A stretch of 64,000 bases of DNA from Longitalea luteola (GTDB lineage: Bacteria; Bacteroidota; Bacteroidia; Chitinophagales; Chitinophagaceae): NCBI RefSeq assembly GCF_017356035.1, contig NZ_JAFIQX010000002.1:186001-250000 (forward strand), given 5' to 3'. Positions 1,953-52,812 of the stretch are shown here, in pieces. The position numbers were made by a program, and so were the translations under genes. Position 1 is the stretch's first letter, and the number at the start of each line of letters is the position of its first letter. The notes beneath the pieces are model-generated. The model saw only the letters and a list, made by a program, of their open reading frames with translations, was not told the origin of the DNA and made no database searches.

Positions 1953-2900
1953 ATGATCAACGAACAGGAATTCTCGCCGTGGAAAGTCAAACTCAGTATC
2001 CTTTTTACCATAGGAATTGCTTTTATTATCTGGGAAGGAAACCGTTTTCTACTGTTTACATTACGCAGTTATTTCGACTGGTTCAACAAACCAATCCGCA
2101 AGATAACGGTGCTCGTACTGGCGGTATCGTTCTATACAATTCCTATAAGTGCATTGCTGCTGGTGATCTGGTATGAAATATTCAATGAAGGAAAAGTAAA
2201 CTGGAATACCATCACCACCACAACACTTATCATCATGATATGCGTGTTGTTCATCACGCATATTTACGAAACGGTGTTTCTGGTGCGGGAAGCAGAAACC
2301 GAGAAATTAAAAAAGGAACAATTGGAAAGGGCCCGGGCAGAAGCGGCCCTCGAAGCGCTCAAAAACCAGATAGACCCGCATTTTATTTTTAATTCGCTCA
2401 ACACCTTGTCGCACCTCATTGAAAAAGACCCGGCAAAAGCCAGGCAGTTCAATGATAACCTGGCAGATGTTTACCGGTACATTCTTCAAAACAAAGCCCG
2501 CGAGCTGGTCTTGCTTCATGAAGAAATGCTATTTTTAAACGATTATTTTTCTTTGCTGAAGATCAGGTTTGAACAGGCTGTGCAATTACAGGTCAATATC
2601 GATGCGGCTTTGTTTGAACAATACCTTATCCCGCCAATTTCATTGCAGATCCTGGTAGAAAACGCCATTAAACACAATGAATTTTCAGATGCTATCCCGT
2701 TGGTAATTACTATTGACATGCAAAACGATGAATTGATCATCCACAACCAGGTGCGCAAAAAGATATTACGGAAAGCATCTTCGCGGATCGGGTTACATAA
2801 CCTGGGCGAACGCTATAAATTAACTACCAGTAAAGAGATCAGTGTGATGGAATCAGGGAGTGATTTCATGGTTTCTTTACCGGTATTAAAAATTGCCTGA
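1953..2900 (+). CDS. LytS-like sensor histidine kinase
   Basis: Membrane sensor kinase of the His_kinase (PF06580) type. From the ATG at 1953: helices near residues 12-35, 50-76 and 88-110, a coiled-coil linker (EAETEKLKKEQLERAR), the phospho-acceptor motif DPHFIFNSLN with His143, an N box (ILVENAIKHN) and a G box (RIGLHNLGERY). The frame is open upstream to 1809 and encodes another clear membrane helix (VILIPAFGVVIPLLTG, 1905-1952), but has no ATG, GTG or TTG there. An ATG at 1810 lies one frame off and would join it if the A7 run at 1860-1866 had one more A. The true N-terminus therefore probably lies upstream. Partner regulator follows 39 nt downstream. Confidence 0.88.
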   Translation: MINEQEFSPWKVKLSILFTIGIAFIIWEGNRFLLFTLRSYFDWFNKPIRKITVLVLAVSFYTIPISALLLVIWYEIFNEGKVNWNTITTTTLIIMICVLFITHIYETVFLVREAETEKLKKEQLERARAEAALEALKNQIDPHFIFNSLNTLSHLIEKDPAKARQFNDNLADVYRYILQNKARELVLLHEEMLFLNDYFSLLKIRFEQAVQLQVNIDAALFEQYLIPPISLQILVENAIKHNEFSDAIPLVITIDMQNDELIIHNQVRKKILRKASSRIGLHNLGERYKLTTSKEISVMESGSDFMVSLPVLKIA

Positions 2901-2939
2901 TATAAAACGTCCGTGGCAAAACCAAATAATTATTACGAG

Positions 2940-3695
2940 ATGAAGTGTGTAATTATAGAAGACGAAAAGCCGGCAGCAGAAAAATTACTTTCATTACTTG
3001 CTGTAAGCAATCAACCTGTATATGTTGAAGCCGTATTGAGCAGTATTAAAGAAGCCATGGAGTGGTTGCAGCAACATGCTACCCCCGAGCTGATCTTTAT
3101 GGATATTGAGCTCAGCGATGGCCTCTCGTTCAAATTATTTGAACAAATAAATATTGAGTGCCCGGTGATTTTCATCACCGCCTATGACGAATACTGGCAG
3201 GAAGCATTTGAATATAACAGCATAGATTATCTGCTGAAACCGGTAAAACCCGAAAAACTGGAAGCCGCCCTCAGTAAATACCAGAAGCTGAAACAGCATT
3301 TCACTAACAACTACCAGGCGCTGGTGAACTGGCAGCAGCCCCAGCCGCAAGGCGGTTACAAAAAGCGGTTCCTCGTAAAAAGGGGCACCGATTACATTAG
3401 TATTAAAACAGAGGAGATAGCCTACTTTTATGCCACCCATAAACTGGTGTGTATGGTTGATAGCGCAGGCCAGAAATTTATCATGGACCAGTCGCTCGCC
3501 GATATTGAGACCCAGGTCGACCCGGCGGTCTTTTACCGGGTCAACCGCAAATACCTGGTAAATATGAGCGCTATCAAACGCATCAAAACCTACCCGAAAA
3601 GCAAGCTGTTGCTCGAGGTAACGCCGCTGGTTACCGAAGACATCATCATCAGTCAGGAAAATGCCGCCGCCTTTAAGCAATGGATGGGACAGTAA
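2940..3695 (+). CDS. LytTR-type response regulator
   Basis: 251 residues. Receiver domain at 1-115 with the acidic pair E7/D8, phospho-acceptor D55 (LIFMDIELSDG), T80 and K100-P101 (LLKPVKPEKL). A LytTR DNA-binding domain follows at about 145-250 (FLVKRGTDYISIKTEEIAYF, then VFYRVNRKYLVNMSAI). The ATG at 2940 is chosen because the receiver starts right there (MKCVIIEDE); the GTG at 2913 only adds nine unrelated residues. It forms a kinase-regulator pair with the gene ending at 2900. LytTR proteins bind paired direct repeats; no target could be assigned in the window. Confidence 0.93.
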   Translation: MKCVIIEDEKPAAEKLLSLLAVSNQPVYVEAVLSSIKEAMEWLQQHATPELIFMDIELSDGLSFKLFEQINIECPVIFITAYDEYWQEAFEYNSIDYLLKPVKPEKLEAALSKYQKLKQHFTNNYQALVNWQQPQPQGGYKKRFLVKRGTDYISIKTEEIAYFYATHKLVCMVDSAGQKFIMDQSLADIETQVDPAVFYRVNRKYLVNMSAIKRIKTYPKSKLLLEVTPLVTEDIIISQENAAAFKQWMGQ

Positions 3696-40109: not shown

Positions 40110-41000
40110 TTATAATGATGGTTTCCAGCGCGATCGTGGTTCAAAATAATTCCAGCATAGGGCCGATAGCTTGCGGGTAAGCACCCAGGCTTCATTTGAA
40201 TTATCCCAACGCTGGTCTTTCAGGTTTTTTGTTTCTACTGAAAAAATATAGGGACCATGTGGCGCCATCACCAACAATATTTCACTGCGCGATGCATTAA
40301 CACATCCATTCTTCGAGGCCACAAATATGTACGGTGGAATTTCGGCGATCGCCTGTTCATCATTATAATTTCTTCCCAACAGGCGGATCATTTTTTCACA
40401 GGATTGTTTGCTGATCACTTCGCCGCGGTAGATCTTTTCCATGAGGGTGCCCATTTCACGTGGAGTGGTTTGTCCCCACCCATATTGTTGCCTGTTGGCT
40501 TCGCGGCCCGGCGTTCTTGAATTCACTCTGGTATATTTCATGCCAAGGGAATCGAGTATTTCATTGATGCGGGTTCCGGTTCCGGCCAGGCTTTGCAACC
40601 AGAGGCTGGCGGTATTGTCGCTGGTAGTAAGCATCAACATGAGTACTTTATGCAATCCGATTTTTTCACCGTTTTTGAATGAACCCAGAATATCTTCACC
40701 GGCATAGTATAATGAATCTTTGTATTCAAGTTGCTGTTGGTACTCGAGCTCTCCTTTGGCTATTTTATCCTGGATGCCTATTAAGATGGGAACCTTCACC
40801 ATGCTGGCGGTTGGGAATATTGAATCGGCATTCACCTGTGCGATCTTTCCGGTGCGCAGGTTTTTAACATATACGCCAATATCTCCGGAAAGGTCTTTGA
40901 CCAGGTCCTGGATCTTTCGCTGCAATTTATGATCGATCTTTTGGGCTGATAAGGAACAGGCGATCAGTAATAACAATGAAGATAGAATATTTTTTTTCAT
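40110..41000 (-). CDS. Class A beta-lactamase-like serine hydrolase
   Basis: 296 residues. Signal peptide 1-19, then the class A fold: S66-M-V-K69 (SxxK), S127-D-N129 (SDN). The third motif is KNG (in VASKNGCVNASRSEI) rather than KTG/KSG, and no typical ExxLN omega-loop Glu is seen (RTPGREANRQQYGWGQ occupies the region). So it is a relative of the beta-lactamases; hydrolysis of beta-lactams is uncertain. Periplasmic. Co-directional with chrA. Confidence 0.85.
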   Translation of the reverse strand: MKKNILSSLLLLIACSLSAQKIDHKLQRKIQDLVKDLSGDIGVYVKNLRTGKIAQVNADSIFPTASMVKVPILIGIQDKIAKGELEYQQQLEYKDSLYYAGEDILGSFKNGEKIGLHKVLMLMLTTSDNTASLWLQSLAGTGTRINEILDSLGMKYTRVNSRTPGREANRQQYGWGQTTPREMGTLMEKIYRGEVISKQSCEKMIRLLGRNYNDEQAIAEIPPYIFVASKNGCVNASRSEILLVMAPHGPYIFSVETKNLKDQRWDNSNEAWVLTRKLSALCWNYFEPRSRWKPSL

Positions 41001-41723: not shown

Positions 41724-42308
41724 AAATGCTAACAGTTCCCCTTTTTAAAGTTCCTGAATTAATCGCTTCTTGCGACGGATAATTTTCTGCAAAGAAACAG
41801 ATTCATAGTGCATGAAAGATGGGATTGGCGATGCAGAAAAAAATATTGCGAAGGGCCGGTAAGACAGTGCAGCGGCTGATTCAACATGTCTTCTTCTCCT
41901 TTAGCTGCCTTTACCAATTATACTCCCACTCACCACGGCTGTATAATGGTAGCGTACCAGCTTCGGGCCTTCTTCGCCTTTTTCTCCTGCCTGTGTCATA
42001 CGTAAGTTGTGTATGTTTCGTACATATCCCGTTCTTTTATAGGTACGGCTTATATACGAGACATATACGAGATATATACGGCACATGTACGAGACATTGA
42101 CGAAGATGCTCCGGTTCAGGTACGAAGATGGGTCGGTTCAAAGTGACCGCAGAATGGTAGGTTATGCGAAAGGATAAAAGGATGGATCCTGGAATAGAAT
42201 ATCCTTCAGGAGGATACAAAGCAGACCAAAGTTTGATGAGGATGACGGAAAGAGAGCCTGTAGTAAAATTAGACAGGAATAGAGGGAGGTGTAAAAACCG
42301 GAACCGCT
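41724..42308. other. 585-bp intergenic region holding an 11-bp tandem array
   Basis: No credible ORF: short open frames lack family features, RBS or codon pattern. It contains the 11-bp repeat at 42052-42106. Confidence 0.55.
42052..42106. repeat. 5 x 11-bp tandem repeat, unit ATATACGAGAC
   Basis: Consecutive units: ATATACGAGAC, ATATACGAGAT, ATATACGGCAC, ATGTACGAGAC, ATTGACGAAGA. Period is one DNA helical turn. Confidence 0.85.
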
Positions 42309-42542
42309 TTATACAAATCCGAGTTCCTCTACAAAAATATTATCGGCTTCATTCAATCGTAAACTGAGGTTATAGCCAGCAACAATTATTGAGATGGGAT
42401 CGCCCAGCGGGGCAATTTGTTCTACCTTAACCAATTCACCGGGAACACAACCCATTTCCATTAGTTTAAGAAAGAGGTCATTATTTTCAAAAGAAAGTAT
42501 CCGGGCAACAGTTCCTGTTTCTATTTCTGATAATCGTTTCAT
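42309..42542 (-). CDS. feoA: FeoA-domain protein, stand-alone
   Basis: 77 residues, SH3-like FeoA domain: MKRLSEIETGTVARILSF, LKLMEMGCVPGELVKVEQ, DPISIIVAGYNLSLRLNEADNI. FeoA assists the Fe(II) transporter FeoB. No feoB follows: downstream is non-coding, then nadD. It may serve a distant feoB. Its -7 element (TACATTTG, minus) overlaps that of ybeY. Confidence 0.88.
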   Translation of the reverse strand: MKRLSEIETGTVARILSFENNDLFLKLMEMGCVPGELVKVEQIAPLGDPISIIVAGYNLSLRLNEADNIFVEELGFV

Positions 42543-42556
42543 AATTCAATAGACAA

Positions 42557-42570
42557 CAAATGTAGCTTTG
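42557..42570. promoter_or_regulatory. Overlapping divergent -7 elements for feoA (-) and ybeY (+)
   Basis: TACATTTG on the minus strand (42557-42564) and TAGCTTTG on the plus strand (42563-42570) share the two bases 42563-42564. feoA begins 14 nt to the left, ybeY 33 nt to the right. Confidence 0.6.
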
Positions 42571-42602
42571 TATTTATTAATGACAGTTACGAATTTCGAA
42601 AA

Positions 42603-43049
42603 ATGCATAATCTTAACACTCCGCCTGTTCAATTTCACTTTTTGTTGGCTGTATCCTTTTCTCACCGTTCCCTGGTGAAGGAAGTTGTTAGGGATATTTT
42701 TAAAAAGGAGAAGACTAAACTGGAACAACTTCGGTACATATTCTGTTCAGATGAATACCTTTTAGAGATCAACAAACAACATCTACAGCACAATTATTAC
42801 ACGGATATTATCACCTTCGACCTCTCTGAAAATGACAATGCGGTAATAGGAGAAGTTTATATAAGTGTTGACCGGGTTAAGGACAATGCCCGCACTTATA
42901 AAGTTCCTTTCAAACATGAACTCCTTCGGGTAATATTTCATGGCGCTCTGCATTTATGTGGGTATAAGGACAAGACCAAAAAAGAAGAAGACTTAATGCG
43001 AAAGGCTGAGGATAAATATCTACACTACTATTTGTCTAAACTTCAATAG
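42603..43049 (+). CDS. ybeY: Endoribonuclease/rRNA maturation factor YbeY
   Basis: 148 residues. UPF0054 fold with YFTDIITFDLSE-type core (NYYTDIITFDLS) and the metal motif HGALHLCGYKDK. The canonical third His (HxxxHxxxxxH) is replaced by Lys here, which I believe is usual for Bacteroidota YbeY. Acts in 16S rRNA 3' processing and ribosome quality control. A parS-like palindrome begins 3 bp after the stop. Confidence 0.9.
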   Translation: MHNLNTPPVQFHFLLAVSFSHRSLVKEVVRDIFKKEKTKLEQLRYIFCSDEYLLEINKQHLQHNYYTDIITFDLSENDNAVIGEVYISVDRVKDNARTYKVPFKHELLRVIFHGALHLCGYKDKTKKEEDLMRKAEDKYLHYYLSKLQ

Positions 43050-43051
43050 GG

Positions 43052-43067
43052 TGTTCCACGTGGAACG
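43052..43067. promoter_or_regulatory. parS-like palindrome 1
   Basis: TGTTCCACGTGGAACG: a perfect 14-bp palindrome GTTCCACGTGGAAC at 43053-43066. Differs from the general parS TGTTTCACGTGAAACA at symmetric positions 5 and 12, plus the last base. It begins three bases after the ybeY stop. Confidence 0.65.
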
Positions 43068-43533
43068 TGAAACATTACATTTACCTGAATGATAACTAAT
43101 AGGCGGAAGGTTAGATACTATCCAGTTCAAGAATCAGTTTTTATACGACCTTCTGTAGATCTGGGGGAAGGAATCTATTCCTTACAGCGACTCTTACAGT
43201 TCCACCATGTTTTAACCCTATTGAAATCTAGATTGGGGAAATCATATTCTACACTACAGCCTCCTCTACATTCCATCAAAATAAAACTGCCCCCGGATCA
43301 ATCATCTTTTAATACGGCGGATGCTCAATTGAAATACAGCTGTCATGGGCTGGGTAAAAAGACAGGCATTTTATAAAAGAGTGGAACCACCATTGAAAAT
43401 ATTGGATTGGCAGTGTACTCCCTGTGGTTTAATGTACACTGGTTCTCAATAAGCAGGCATAACACTGCCCGCTTACCATTAGACCGATCGCTTCAGTGTT
43501 CCGGATGGTATGGTTTAATCATCAGCAACAAGA

Positions 43534-45090
43534 CTTCCTTACAGGATATCCTTTGTAGTCTCTCCTGAACTACCCAGAACATGAAACCTCTCCTTTACCG
43601 CCACCAGCAGGCATCTCCTTCTTTAAAACCCGCCTCCATTGTCCGGATAAAATAGATGAGTTAGCGATTGGCTTCCTTACGGTACAGCCCACATAGTCTC
43701 GCCATACTATCCCGAGGATAAACCCTCACCACTTGCCACCACTGCAATGTCTTCTTCTGAAACCAAAATCCATTCACCGGATACAATGGTAAATAATAAT
43801 CTCCAGGTAAGAGCCCAAGTCTCAACTAAACAATCCCCATGCACTTTTCTTTTGCAATGCAGAACCTTTCCCCTTGAAACACGCTTAAGAAGTCAGGGCG
43901 AGAGTATGAATTATTGGTAAACAGAACTTTCATACAGGAAAGCCTTTACAGCTTCAGTCGAACAAACGCCCGGGTAAGCTCCCTCCGTTTACAGCACGAG
44001 CCCTTCCCTGAACCATGGTCTCAGGTGCCCGATAGAAAGATGGCTAATGAGTTACCATTGCTTCCTCACAAAACAGCCTGTTAGCTCAGCTCAATTGTCC
44101 CTTGAATAAAGTCTACTTTACAAGCACAGCAGAATCACCTCCCTGAACGCATCTATAGTGTCCGGACGGAAAGACGAAGAATAATATAGGTTCCTGACAG
44201 GACAGCCGTTGAAGTCCAGTTTAATAATACCTCCGATACCTCTCTCTTTACTGCCAAAGAACTTACTTCACCCGTCTACGGCGCCCAAATGGCAAAATGA
44301 AACCAACTTATTAATAGCTTCCCTACGGAAGTCTTTTAGTCTCACCTTAATAGTCCCCCCAGGTAAAACTCCCTTTTACGGCCAGTTGAACCACGTCCTT
44401 GGAACCCAAAAATGACGTCCATATGGAGCGTGAATTAATGACATCCTTATAGAAGTCGAGTCCTGTTGGTCTCACCTTAATAGTCCCCCGGTAAAACTAC
44501 CTTTTACGGCCAGCAGAACCACAACCCTGGAACCCAATACTGACGTCCAGACGAAGCAAGAATTATAACTTCCTTATAGAAGTTCCCTTGATAGTTCCAC
44601 GGTAAATCCTCCTCTTGCAAAGGAAAACCTCCCTCGGACCAACTCTTATTGCGGATGCTTAATAATAACTGAACACAGCCTCCTGGCAGGACAGGCGATG
44701 TACTCTCAGTTCAATAACCCGTCGATAACGATGCTTTTTACTGCCAACGAGTGACCAATCCATTCTGAACGATCACCAGCGCCCAGATAGTAAGGTGAAT
44801 TTAATTGAATATAGCTCCCTGGCAGTACAGTCCTTAGGGCCACAACTTAAAAACCGATCAGACAACCCATTCGTTTTGTGGCCACAGAAGGATGTTTCCT
44901 TTTTAAAAGAGGGCCCATTGTCCGGATGGAAAAAGTGAATTATCTCCTAGTAATAACTTCCTTACCAGAGAGAGTCCTAATTGTTCAGTAGGCAATCCCG
45001 GGATTTCTCCCCTTAAATCTTACCTCTATTTCATATCAAGGGTACACCTGCACAACCTTATGTAAATAGCAACTTAAACTACTCCCTGAA
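43534..45090 (+). repeat. Left arm: ~12 degenerate tandem copies of a ~128-bp unit
   Basis: Units start with cTTCCTTACAG-like words at 43534, 43672, 43800, 43925, 44061, 44190, 44318, 44442, 44569, 44679, 44815 and 44957 (spacing 110-142, mean about 129). Within each, in order: AGTCTCACCTTAATAGTCCC, then CTTTTACGGCCAGCAGAACC, then GTCCGGATGGAAA and GAATTA. The best-preserved copies are at 44318-44568. More decayed copies extend left to about 43170. Confidence 0.85.
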
Positions 45091-45584
45091 TCAACCCATC
45101 TTTTAATATAAAAGAATCTCCGTCTTAAACCTTTTCCCAGTGGCCTGGCTGGAAAGCTTAATCACACAATTAAGCCTTAAATCAATCGAATAAAACCCAT
45201 TGCAACCTTATTTGATACCTCCTTTTGTAAGCTTACATACAGGAACGCTCGACTCTACCTTATCCATGTCGTATAGGCTCATCAGTGAATTAAAGAAAGG
45301 AGTAAATGGCTTTCAGAATGTAGAGAGTAAGGAGAAGGCAGCGGGCCCTTAACGTTGGGCATTACTCTTAGCCAAATGGGTCTCTCACTCCCAGTTGAAA
45401 AAATGAACCAGGATAAAAAAGGTATGCTTGCAAAAGGGATTAGACAGGTCAACGATAGTACTCGATCGAACAGTAAGTGGATAAACCATCTATCTGCTGG
45501 GGTCACTCCAAAAGCACGCCTACTTCAAAGCGGAAAGAATATGCGAAAAAGCACTGGTCACTTGTCAAAGTCAATCCCATTGAG

Positions 45585-45600
45585 GGTTCCACGTGGAACA
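45585..45600. promoter_or_regulatory. parS-like palindrome 2
   Basis: GGTTCCACGTGGAACA with the same perfect 14-bp core (45586-45599) as site 1. Lies about 300 bp right of the skew and orientation flip. Confidence 0.65.
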
Positions 45601-45817
45601 CAAAGCTGTGAACGATCGTTTTAAAGAGAGGTTCCACAGAGAAGTGAGGAAATAAGGGTTGAAAGGTTGAAAATCGGAGCAGAAATATCGGGGCAAGGGT
45701 CCTCTGGGAGGACGTTCCCAGACAAAAGGAAGGGAACAAGGGGTGTGCAAATGAAACGCTGTAATGAGACTGGGACAAAAAAGGCGAAAGGATCCTTTTA
45801 GAAGAGAGTGTAAAGGA

Positions 45818-46370
45818 GGGCAATAAGGCATACTAGCCAAAAAGGATAGTGTACCCAAGGAATTAAGACAGACCAAGGGTTGGCTTGGACCGGCTACAAG
45901 TAAGGAAAAGATCCTTAAAGCAGGGAGTACAAATCAAAAGGGATGATGACAATGGGGTAAAAAGTAGGGGGAACGGGTCCTTGCAGAACAGAATTTAAAG
46001 AAGGGCAATAAGGCATACTATACCAAAAGGGATAGCGTACCAAAGGAATCAAGACAGACTAAGGGTTGGCTTGGACCGGCTACAAGTAAGGAAAAGATCC
46101 TTAAAACAGAAAGTACATATCAAAAGGGATGATGAGAATGGGGTAAAAGTAGGGGGAAGGGTCCTTGTAGAACAGAATTAAAAGAAGGGCAATAAGGCAT
46201 ACTAGCCAAAAAGGATAGTATACCAAAGGAATCAAGACAGACTAAGGGTTGGCTTGGACCGGCCACAAGTAAGGAAAAGATCCTTAAAACAGAGAGTACA
46301 TATCAAAAGGGATGATGAGAATGCGGTAAAAGTAGGGCAACGGTCCTTTTGGAAAGGGTCCTTTCAGAAA
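45818..46370 (-). repeat. Right arm: three near-identical 185-bp tandem copies
   Basis: Copies start with GGGCAATAAGGCATACTA at 45818, 46003 and 46187 (periods 185 and 184). Read on the minus strand, each carries TTCCTTAC, GGTCT (or AGTCT), TTAAT, GGTA, ACT, CCTTTT and GGC in the same order and near the same spacing as the left-arm unit at 44442-44510. Related fragments continue to about 47440 (for example AAGGAATTAAATAGACAAACC near 47410). Confidence 0.85.
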
Positions 46371-47550
46371 GCGTTTCACATACAAAGGGAAGGGAATAAG
46401 GTGTGCGGAAAAGTAACGTTGTTGTCCGCAGAGGTCCTTCCATGCACAAAATAGTCGTTGTGAGTTCCTTTATATTAGGAAGAGGGCAACAGAAGTGTTC
46501 AAATAAAAGTGCCCTTATAAAGCGTTTAAAAATATGACGATGCCTGCTTTAAAAGGTATAACATGGCGAAAGCAGGAGGAGTAGACGAATTAGAGTAAGC
46601 CTGTAAAAGTAAAGGTCGAGGCGAAAAACTTCATCAATCTAAATACTAAATGAGCCTAATAAAGTAGACAACCAAGACCCACCTTCAGGTAGACATGTGA
46701 GATAAAACAAAAAGCTTCATACGTAAGGGTAAAAAAGATAGAAGGGCGTACAGGGCAGGGCCACCCTAAGGGAAAGCAAGAGAAAGGCGGCTATAGATAG
46801 CGAAGCAGGCACCCACTACCAAAACCCTAATTAGAAATGATATATGAAAGGTGAACATAATTCCCTCCCAAAAAGAGCAAAGGCTAACTATGGTAAAGTA
46901 CGGCGGGCAAACAGGGCAGTTCCTTTGGGATAAGAAACGGAAAGCGAGCACAAGCAGGTGGGCAAGGTAGGAAGGAGAAATCCAAGTAGATAATAGAGAC
47001 TTTCTCATTGGGGTGGCGAGGAAAAAAAGGAGCGAAGAAGGGTCCTTACAAGGAGGTTAATAGTAAAAGAGGAAACCAATGATTAAACAAAAGTACCCCA
47101 TAGCAGTTGAAGAAAATAAGGAATGACAAAGAACCTTGCAAAGGAGAACTGTGGGAACAGGAATTAAGTAAGCAAACAAAACTTACCCTGTCAAAGGAAA
47201 GTAAAACAAGCGACTCAAAGAATGGTCCTTAAGAAGTGAAATACGAAAAGAGGAAAGAAGTAGGCAAACAAGGGATCCCTTCAAAAAAGGTAAAGGAAGA
47301 AGAAGGGAAAGAGGACAGATTTAGAGAACTCAGAATTCAATTATAAAAGTAAAGGATAGCTCCTGACAAAAGGCACCAATAAAAATCTGGAACCTTTCAT
47401 TACCCTCAAGGAATTAAATAGACAAACCAAGTACGAGACCCAGCATTTTTGGATAACAATATCCATATTTGGATGAAAAAAATCTCACGAAAGTTCCCGG
47501 ACAAACCCTTACCGGCATTTTTCTCTTTTTACCCCTTGCCGTCCTTCCTG

Positions 47551-47558
47551 TAATTTTG
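47551..47558 (+). promoter_or_regulatory. -7 element of mnmG, leaderless layout
   Basis: TAATTTTG, an exact TAnnTTTG match, four bases (CACC) before the ATG at 47563. Confidence 0.65.
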
Positions 47559-47562
47559 CACC

Positions 47563-49425
47563 ATGTTTCCAGAATACGATATTATTGTTGTAGGGGCAGG
47601 TCATGCCGGTTGTGAAGCAGCCGCAGCAGCCGCTAACCTTGGTTCAAAGGTCCTTTTAGTAACCATGAATATGCAAACCATTGCCCAAATGAGCTGCAAC
47701 CCGGCCATGGGCGGTATTGCAAAAGGTCAAATCGTTCGAGAAATCGATGCTATGGGTGGATACTCCGGGATCGTCACCGATATCAGCATGATCCAGTTTC
47801 GCATGCTCAACCTGTCCAAAGGTCCGGCCATGTGGAGCCCCCGCGCACAAAATGATCGCATGTTGTTCGCAGCCACCTGGCGGGAATTGTTAGAACGGAC
47901 TCCAAACGTAGATTTTTACCAGGACATGGTCCGCTCACTTATTATAAAAGACGGCCGCGCCTGTGGTGTGGTCACCGGCCTTGGTCATGAAATAAGATCA
48001 AAAGCAGTTGTTCTCACCAACGGTACCTTCTTGAACGGCATCATTCATATCGGTGAAAAACAATTCGGTGGTGGCCGCGTAGCCGAAAAAGCCGCTACCG
48101 GCATTACTGAACAATTGGTTGAACTCGGCTTCGAAAGTGATCGCCTTAAAACAGGAACACCTCCCCGAATCGATGGCCGCAGTCTCGATTATTCCAAAAT
48201 GGAAGAACAAAAAGGCGACGAAGAAATCGTAGGTTTCTCATTTACCGATACTAAAAAACCAGTTGAACAGAGAAGCTGCTGGATCACTTATACTAGCCCG
48301 AAAGTACACGACATCCTGAAAACAGGATTCGACAGGAGTCCTATGTATGCTGGTAGAATTGAAGGCACCGGTCCACGGTATTGTCCCAGCATCGAAGACA
48401 AGATCAACCGGTTCGCTGAACGCGAAAGACATCAGCTCTTTGTTGAACCCGAAGGCTGGAACACCGTTGAAATTTATGTAAATGGTTTTTCCACTTCTCT
48501 ACCCGAAGAAGTGCAGATCGCTGCCCTTCGCCAGGTGCCCGGTTTTGAAAATGTTCGCGTGTTCCGTCCAGGCTATGCCATCGAATACGACTACTTTCCA
48601 CCAACACAGTTAAATCATTCGCTGGAAACAAAACTCATTCAGAATTTATTCTTCGCCGGACAAATCAATGGAACCACGGGTTATGAAGAAGCTGCCTGCC
48701 AGGGTTTGATGGCCGGCATCAATGCCCATCAAAAAGCCAAAGAATTGGATGCGGTTATTTTGAAAAGAAGCGATGCCTACATCGGCGTTTTGATCGATGA
48801 TCTCATCAGTAAAGGAACGGAAGAACCTTACCGCATGTTTACCAGCCGCGCCGAATTCAGAACGATCCTTCGTCAGGATAATGCAGACCTCCGGCTGACG
48901 GAATTAAGCTACCGGCTGGGACTCGCATCCCAGGAAAGAATGGATAAAGTGATCAACAAAAAAGACGGTGTCGAAAAAATAAAAGATATTCTGAAAGAAG
49001 TTTCATTGGAGCCGGCTGAAGCAGATGGATTTCTCGCAGAAAATAATTCAGCGCCATTGCCCCAAAAACAAAAAGCGCTTCAGGTACTGCTTCGCCCAAA
49101 TATTACACTGGAAGCTATGATCAACGGTTTACCCAGAATTAAACAGGCGTTGACTGGTTTTTCAGAAGAAATAATAGAGCAGGCTGATATTCAGATAAAA
49201 TATAATGTATATATCGAAAAAGAAAAGGAACTGGTAAAGAGAATGAATCAACTGGAAGATCTGCTGATCCCGGATAATTTCGATTACGATCGTATCAATT
49301 CTTTGTCGGCGGAAGCTATGCAGAAATTCAAAAAAATTAAACCCCGAACATTAGGCCAGGCAAGCCGCATCAGTGGAGTAAATCCAAGCGATGTGCAAAT
49401 ACTGATGGTGTATATGGGAAGATGA
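47563..49425 (+). CDS. mnmG: tRNA uridine-5-carboxymethylaminomethyl modification enzyme MnmG
   Basis: 620 residues, full length. FAD-binding GAGHAGCEAA (residues 11-20), NPAMGGIAKGQIVREIDAMG, the catalytic Cys-containing YCPSIEDK and FAGQINGTTGYEEAACQG, and the C-terminal helical domain ending SRISGVNPSDVQILMVYMGR. With MnmE it forms cmnm5U34 in tRNA wobble positions. Borders the gene-free repeat tract, as gidA borders oriC in some bacteria. Confidence 0.97.
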   Translation: MFPEYDIIVVGAGHAGCEAAAAAANLGSKVLLVTMNMQTIAQMSCNPAMGGIAKGQIVREIDAMGGYSGIVTDISMIQFRMLNLSKGPAMWSPRAQNDRMLFAATWRELLERTPNVDFYQDMVRSLIIKDGRACGVVTGLGHEIRSKAVVLTNGTFLNGIIHIGEKQFGGGRVAEKAATGITEQLVELGFESDRLKTGTPPRIDGRSLDYSKMEEQKGDEEIVGFSFTDTKKPVEQRSCWITYTSPKVHDILKTGFDRSPMYAGRIEGTGPRYCPSIEDKINRFAERERHQLFVEPEGWNTVEIYVNGFSTSLPEEVQIAALRQVPGFENVRVFRPGYAIEYDYFPPTQLNHSLETKLIQNLFFAGQINGTTGYEEAACQGLMAGINAHQKAKELDAVILKRSDAYIGVLIDDLISKGTEEPYRMFTSRAEFRTILRQDNADLRLTELSYRLGLASQERMDKVINKKDGVEKIKDILKEVSLEPAEADGFLAENNSAPLPQKQKALQVLLRPNITLEAMINGLPRIKQALTGFSEEIIEQADIQIKYNVYIEKEKELVKRMNQLEDLLIPDNFDYDRINSLSAEAMQKFKKIKPRTLGQASRISGVNPSDVQILMVYMGR

Positions 49426-52242: not shown

Positions 52243-52244
52243 AG

Positions 52245-52760
52245 TATTTATATTAATTCTATTTTTTTATAAATAACCTATTATTATTACGGCTGTGGAT
52301 TCGTGGATAAAATGAAAGCCGAGAAATTTGGTAAAGTTACAACAACCTGGTTATCCACGTTTTTCCACTTTCTATCAACATTAAACAATTGTTACCTGGC
52401 AAGGGTTTTAGCCAGTTTTCCACTTCCGTGGAATAAAAATCGCCGGGAAAAATACAACGGCCTGTGAACATACAAAGTGTGTTAATGGAGGTCGAATAAC
52501 TAAGGGTTTTTATACACCGCACCGTTGGGGAAACTATTCATCAAAACTTATTGGCGAACTATCCACTAAAACCGATGTGCAAAAACCGGGGTTACCCACA
52601 TATTTTCAGCGTTATACCCTTTTGATGTTAGCATTGTTTTCACGACGCTGTTCCACGACAGGTACGTATATTAAAAAGATAGTGGTTGTGCACATGGCTG
52701 TGAACAGGCAAAACCTTTACTTGATGCTGGTTTTGAGTGGTTTTCCACAGTTTGTTCATA
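52245..52760. other. AT-rich intergenic region with a DnaA-box-like cluster, candidate oriC
   Basis: An AT-rich stretch (52245-52290) is followed by 9-mers near TTATCCACA. Minus strand TTATCCACG (52302-52310). Plus strand TTATCCACG (52351), TTTTCCACT (52361 and 52416), TTATACACC (52510), TTACCCACA (52592) and TTTTCCACA (52741). Six have one mismatch or match the relaxed TTWTNCACA; others two. This density in 450 bp is striking. The gap is 570 bp, divergent genes on both sides, no ORF. Confidence 0.55.
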
Positions 52761-52781
52761 AACTTTTTTCGCCTATTTTTG
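52751..52781 (+). promoter_or_regulatory. Promoter of the PpiD/SurA-like gene
   Basis: TTTG (52751-52754), 19 nt, TATTTTTG (52774-52781): full match. The DnaA-box-like TTTTCCACA (52741-52749) abuts the -33 element. Confidence 0.75.
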
Positions 52782-52812
52782 CCATCCTTATAAAAAGAGG
52801 TATACCTATAAT

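Follow-up and report, generated by a model that had tools for sequence, protein, structure and literature searches.

In the genome of Longitalea luteola, a member of the Chitinophagaceae, the genes ybeY and mnmG (gidA) are separated by a tract of 4,513 nt, at positions 43050-47562 of the window (the whole 64,000-nt stretch of DNA that we analysed). We found two parS palindromes and two tandem arrays in this tract, and we describe it here as the probable centromere of the chromosome. The original prediction, made from the sequence letters, had called the tract gene-free, and we could confirm this, as its longest open reading frame (ORF; 106 amino acids, aa) is no longer than shuffled sequence gives (50 shuffles, median 100 aa, 95% value 164 aa). 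The features of the locus are the following.

42603-43049, plus strand: ybeY, left border of the tract (PF02130, E 1.3e-27)
43053-43066, no strand: parS1, GTTCCACGTGGAAC, directly after the ybeY stop codon
43534-45156, plus strand: left array, 12-13 diverged copies of a unit of about 115-120 nt with a step of about 130 nt (profile and shuffle control)
45586-45599, no strand: parS2, GTTCCACGTGGAAC, 2,533 nt from parS1
45745-46402, plus strand: right array, four copies of a unit of about 183 nt, the last one partial
45840-45886, minus strand: candidate inverted match to the left unit, weak and located within the right array (profile; 8-15 of 300 shuffles score equally)
47505-47562, plus strand: mnmG leader, 90% identical to the closest relative (G007) over 58 nt and aligned among eight of nine tracts of the genus (not L041)
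47563-49425, plus strand: mnmG, right border of the tract (PF01134, E 1.3e-162)
52243-52812, no strand: putative replication origin (oriC), the nadA-surA intergenic region, with five exact TTWTCCAC boxes against 0.09 expected

Both sites of the window are perfect GTTCCACGTGGAAC palindromes, and GTTCCACGTGGAAC is the parS consensus palindrome. Their core TTCCACGTGGAA occurs in exact form only twice in the 7.3-Mb genome, both times in the ybeY-mnmG tract. Across ten genomes of the genus, we counted two exact TTCCACGTGGAA cores in nine of them and three in one (G004), and in the nine genomes in which the whole gap could be read, every such site lay inside the ybeY-mnmG gap. In G008, both cores are found downstream of ybeY on a small contig, about 2.3 kb apart, with mnmG on another contig. 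A related parS consensus is quoted in PMC10197239.

The link between parS and mnmG extends beyond the genus. A scan of 60 genomes of the family (the window's own and 59 from other genera) found a GTTYCACGTGRAAC site in 45 of them. Among the 31 genomes whose sites were listed, the window's included, all sites are on the contig that bears mnmG; in the 30 others, 73 of 73 sites are at most 1.71 kb upstream of mnmG or within the gene, and in the window's genome parS reaches 4.51 kb upstream. We also examined 100 mnmG loci, from which one duplicate, one fragment and seven loci with less than 2 kb upstream were removed. There, parS was near mnmG (up to 2 kb upstream, or 5 kb in the genus, and as far as 2.5 kb beyond the gene) in eight of eight loci of the genus and in 53 of 83 others, and a single site was found elsewhere in 1.16 Mb. 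Several of the other parS-bearing loci have ybeY-mnmG gaps shorter than 100 nt.

Some variants of this arrangement were observed on the way. L117 (Flavobacterium sp. MC2016-06), L126 and L133 carry six to seven parS sites upstream of mnmG, mostly in steps of about 40-90 nt, and L117, which is distant from the genus, has a separate tandem array of about 100-120 nt per unit that runs from after the parS cluster to the last parS. A coding parS lies within mnmG at +381, at the same place, in several genera (L062, L063, L067, L069 and L101; G014, G041, G044, G055 and G078). In L108, L111 and L114 (Pedobacter, Mucilaginibacter), 4.2-6.3 kb separate ybeY from mnmG, and the parS sites found are at most 80 nt from mnmG.

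The proteins expected to act on such sites are encoded in the genome. ParB was found above the family cut-off as a single copy in five of five genomes. The window genome's ParB has the ParB_N, HTH_ParB and ParB_C domains, matches solved Spo0J/ParB chains (best E 9e-55) and is encoded next to a gene for a ParA-type ATPase; in G005, where the distance is measurable, the ParB gene is about 2.6 Mb from the tract. SMC was above cut-off in two of two genomes. Three properties of a chromosomal parS centromere are found here, namely a consensus palindrome, sites near the origin that are otherwise rare, and ParB and ParA in the genome. Taken together, the motif, its exclusivity and its position suggest that ParB binds at the tract.

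The nadA-surA gap is predicted to be the likely oriC, as a cluster of DnaA boxes at the switch of GC skew. All 14 syntenic genomes have three to six DnaA boxes in this gap, where 0.01-0.10 would be expected (two of the 16 loci are non-syntenic). In G005, which is assembled in one contig of 9.03 Mb, GC skew turns from positive to negative between the samples at 2.45 and 2.9 Mb and from negative to positive between 7.75 and 8.4 Mb. The cumulative skew over the sampled stretch is minimal in the 20-kb bin at 7,830-7,850 kb, which contains both the mnmG start (7,831,758) and the DnaA-box cluster. On the window's contig, most samples up to the tract have negative skew and most from 250 kb onwards have positive skew; minor exceptions were seen at 160, 270 and 880 kb. 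In G005, dnaA itself is 1.2 Mb away; according to PMC10197239, dnaA does not always mark the origin. The tract probably adjoins an origin, as had been predicted, and the likely oriC lies about 5 kb to its right, 6.6 and 9.2 kb from the parS sites.

An origin inside the tract was rejected. In the window, the tract has no exact DnaA box and two one-mismatch boxes against 1.4 expected, and the nine tracts of the genus hold zero to two boxes against 0.7-1.6 expected, with no clear excess. A flip of GC skew within the tract was likewise rejected as a mark of the origin because L034, the tract of the closest relative, has the opposite order. The claim that the repeats are oriented by replichore about an origin is not supported: the DnaA-box cluster is not between the arms, and the whole tract is on one side of the likely oriC.

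By contrast, the left array was predicted accurately, as about 12 copies of a ~128-bp unit starting at 43534. The unit profile that had been proposed as a check, iterated from a strong adjacent pair and run on the tract, recovered 12 copies at E <= 1.1e-7 and 13 when rerun, whereas shuffled sequence kept just the one or two seed copies in 12 runs. The copies have diverged, with a mean column identity of 57% across 12 of them, and plain BLAST recovers two pairs, one of adjacent copies (84% identity) and one of copies further apart (76% over 71 nt). In the right array, the period is about 183 nt instead of the left step of about 130 nt. The arrays span 1,623 nt (left) and 658 nt (right) of the tract. 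Except for the two parS sites, no parS-like core (at most three mismatches) was found in the window, and none lies in the array units. In these arrays the binding site does not repeat with the unit, as it would in a centromere made of tandem repeats. The earlier suggestion of a link to partition is supported by the two parS sites, which it had not named.

We then compared the tract between species. Ten genes are 87% identical in DNA between the window's genome and G007, its closest relative. Of 22 other intergenic stretches (6.7 kb in total), 72% could be aligned with G007, but in the tract this fell to 1.3%, all of it in the mnmG leader. BLAST pairs among the nine tracts fall nearly all in the mnmG leader (eight of nine tracts, 41-108 nt) or at parS; the others are a 96-nt stretch starting at parS1 (L040 and L041), a gene inside L039 and L041, and two pieces of about 30 nt at E 0.002-0.009. 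These alignments show apparent sequence constraint only in the parS pair and the mnmG leader. The neighbouring coaD-ybeY gap (41724-42602, 879 nt) is also poorly conserved, with 42% aligned to G007, and a gene of the Beta-lactamase2 family adjoins coaD at 40110-41000.

The arrays are species-specific. Their periods are about 145 and 288 nt in L034, 107 and about 150 nt in L035, about 165 nt in L036, 193 nt in L038 and 214 nt in L039, so that unit length differs among all array-bearing species, and the position and presence of repeats vary too. Three of the nine species (L037, L040 and L041), searched by BLAST alone, showed no arrays. In L039, the tract of G004, parS is part of the 214-nt unit and always has the same position in it, intact in two of eight aligned units and decayed in the rest; among the species looked at, only G004 had parS or decayed parS in its array units.

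Together, these data make it likely that the tract is a ParB/parS centromere of the chromosome, whose long spacer is free of sequence constraint and tends to accumulate repeats. ParB, encoded far off beside ParA, would load on the two parS palindromes and slide or spread from them over the surrounding spacer DNA. This would allow ParA, and perhaps SMC, to fold and move the origin after its replication; the origin itself would fire about 5 kb to the right of the tract. A spacer without sequence requirement could grow repeatedly by local tandem duplication, and this would leave different, decaying arrays in each species, as by-products rather than working parts.

The original prediction had instead taken the tract as one repeat family in two opposed arms, which would bind a partition, SMC-loading or replication protein. 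Real arrays do adjoin parS and the likely origin, and the right arm does contain the ordered words of the left unit on its minus strand (five of five at 45874 and four of five at 46243, with offsets within ±4), although the control in which the best of 500 shuffles reached three of five is too lenient, the words having been taken from the copies under test. The word-free tests were weak. The left profile's best match in the right arm has an E value of 2.2 and falls on the same spot (minus strand, 45840-45864); under four gap-cost settings it scored 1.1-3.4 bits and was equalled by 15, 9, 8 and 11 of 300 shuffles, and no strand among 16 from the tracts of other species reached it. When each of 12 left units was aligned separately and the results were added up, z was between +0.9 and +2.9 for the minus strand and between -0.3 and +1.4 for the plus strand, the three right copies covered being mutually non-independent. 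The self-comparison that had been proposed as a check made left-array pairs visible by BLAST but no inverted match of at least 30 bits between the arms, except for the parS pair itself. Any piece common to both arms is at most about 50-70 nt long. An inverted, decayed relation between the arms is possible, but a protein-binding family in opposed arms is very unlikely, given that three species lack BLAST-visible arrays, that unit length depends on the species, that the units have no parS-like core, that the tract lies entirely on one side of the likely oriC, and that no word is common to the tracts beyond what other noncoding DNA shows. Concerning the latter, the best oriented 7-mer across the nine tracts (z 8.0) exceeded 30 Markov simulations (maximum 5.8) and was within the range of 12 random noncoding sets (up to 8.2), and the best 6-mer and 8-mer were also below the maxima of the noncoding sets. 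It is more improbable still that the arrays produce repeated structured RNAs, as had also been suggested, and nothing came up in favour of this: Rfam gave no match at gathering threshold within the window, RNAalifold predicted no pairs for the 12 left units, folds of four of these units on both strands (eight folds) had z values of -0.76 to +0.68, and no Bacteroidetes-type promoter motif was found in the window's tract.

Two other explanations concern the tract as a whole. It could be what remains of a gene or inserted element that has decayed, the arrays being debris, and a gene of about 260 aa, of unknown family and with a hydrophobic C-terminal part, is indeed found inside the parS tract of three of the ten genomes, G004 (L039, gap 2248-3042), G005 (L041, gap 1265-2035) and G008 (C172, 851-1588), the G005 and G008 copies being 38% and 42% identical to that of G004, and has no match in the other seven genomes. 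Against this, ORFs stay within the shuffled range in seven of nine tracts (the real gene being in L039 and L041), and all nine members read have a long tract; we regard such a remnant as unlikely. More serious, though still doubtful, is that the length and strand composition of the spacer are selected and its sequence is free, the spacer being a strip for loading and sliding of ParB or condensin, much like satellite DNA at eukaryotic centromeres. In support of a selected length, the ybeY-mnmG gap is 2.7-4.5 kb in all nine members of the genus read, against 72-1,726 nt in 10 of 11 other family genomes (in the eleventh, ybeY was not found), and the distance from first to last parS is 1.25-2.53 kb in the nine (G004 with its three sites). 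On the other hand, an inherited expansion could persist without selection, several other parS loci do with the very short gaps mentioned above, and the gene inside the tract in three of ten members indicates that gene-freeness is not required. As for composition, A exceeds T on the mnmG strand in nine of nine species (AT skew +0.109 to +0.242), including the three without BLAST-visible arrays. A replication-strand bias was rejected as the source of this (four-fold AT skew of -0.026 to +0.007 in six sample sets), and so was a transcription bias, four-fold sites being T-rich on the sense strand. However, among other noncoding stretches, 13 of the 90 that measure 500 nt or more and one of the 16 that measure 1 kb or more also reach an AT skew of 0.109 in either direction, and the sign of the gap's AT skew varies in family members outside the genus. 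We also noticed that positions 45300-47400 of the window are 66% purine on the plus strand over 2.1 kb, the maximum among 93 noncoding stretches (G000, G005) being 59%.

Several observations weigh against a centromere whose spacer is unconstrained and prone to repeats. No exact parS match was found in 15 of the 60 family genomes. The consistent A-richness would be unexpected for wholly unconstrained DNA, and the weak inverted match, if real, would mean that the two arrays have a common origin instead of arising by independent duplications. Tandem clusters are not peculiar to the tract either: with BLAST alone, we counted seven in 67.5 kb of other noncoding DNA of the window's genome (in six of 20 samples) and at least seven in 115.6 kb of noncoding DNA of G005. 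Finally, identity to G007 at four-fold sites is 59% (34% in ybeY, 41 sites), and neutral copies simulated with this divergence could be aligned over 2-57% of their length, depending on the indel rate. Most of the failure to align could thus be due to neutral saturation alone; similarity has dropped to the level expected under neutrality or somewhat below it, which does not prove accelerated change.

As an extension of the centromere reading, we tentatively propose that the locus resembles a satellite centromere in a bacterium, in which place, parS pair, multi-kb length and A-rich strand would be selected and the sequence would be replaced by local tandem amplification, which in G004 took in parS itself. 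We hold this to be possible rather than probable. If true, the spacer would act through its physical make-up, as a loading strip for ParB or condensin. Among the titles and abstract openings listed in literature searches, none dealt with parS beside mnmG, with repeat-rich spacers of chromosomal parS sites or with segregation in this bacterial group, for which a likely centromere and origin are now located. In the genus, nine natural versions of the tract have kept little besides the 14-nt parS sites, and this makes it directly testable whether the DNA around parS matters by its sequence, its length or its strand composition.

Among known systems, the closest is chromosomal ParABS as described in an excerpt of PMC10197239, according to which gut bacteria, Bacteroides caecimuris among them, have clustered parS sites at the origin as defined by skew. 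Palindromic GTTCCACGTGGAAC sites near a skew-defined origin, dnaA located elsewhere, and canonical ParB and ParA are common to both; the two sites 2.5 kb apart and the long hypervariable spacer with arrays are particular to our locus, such a spacer not being mentioned in that excerpt. With sopC of plasmid F, the locus shares tandem arrays at a partition locus. Each tandem repeat of sopC is a binding site, whereas the units in the window hold no parS. In eukaryotic satellite centromeres, position and presumed function are conserved and the tandem arrays turn over fast. The tract differs from them in that a fixed short parS is conserved and that three of nine species have no BLAST-visible array, and it is like them in its conserved position, its presumed function and the fast turnover of its arrays.

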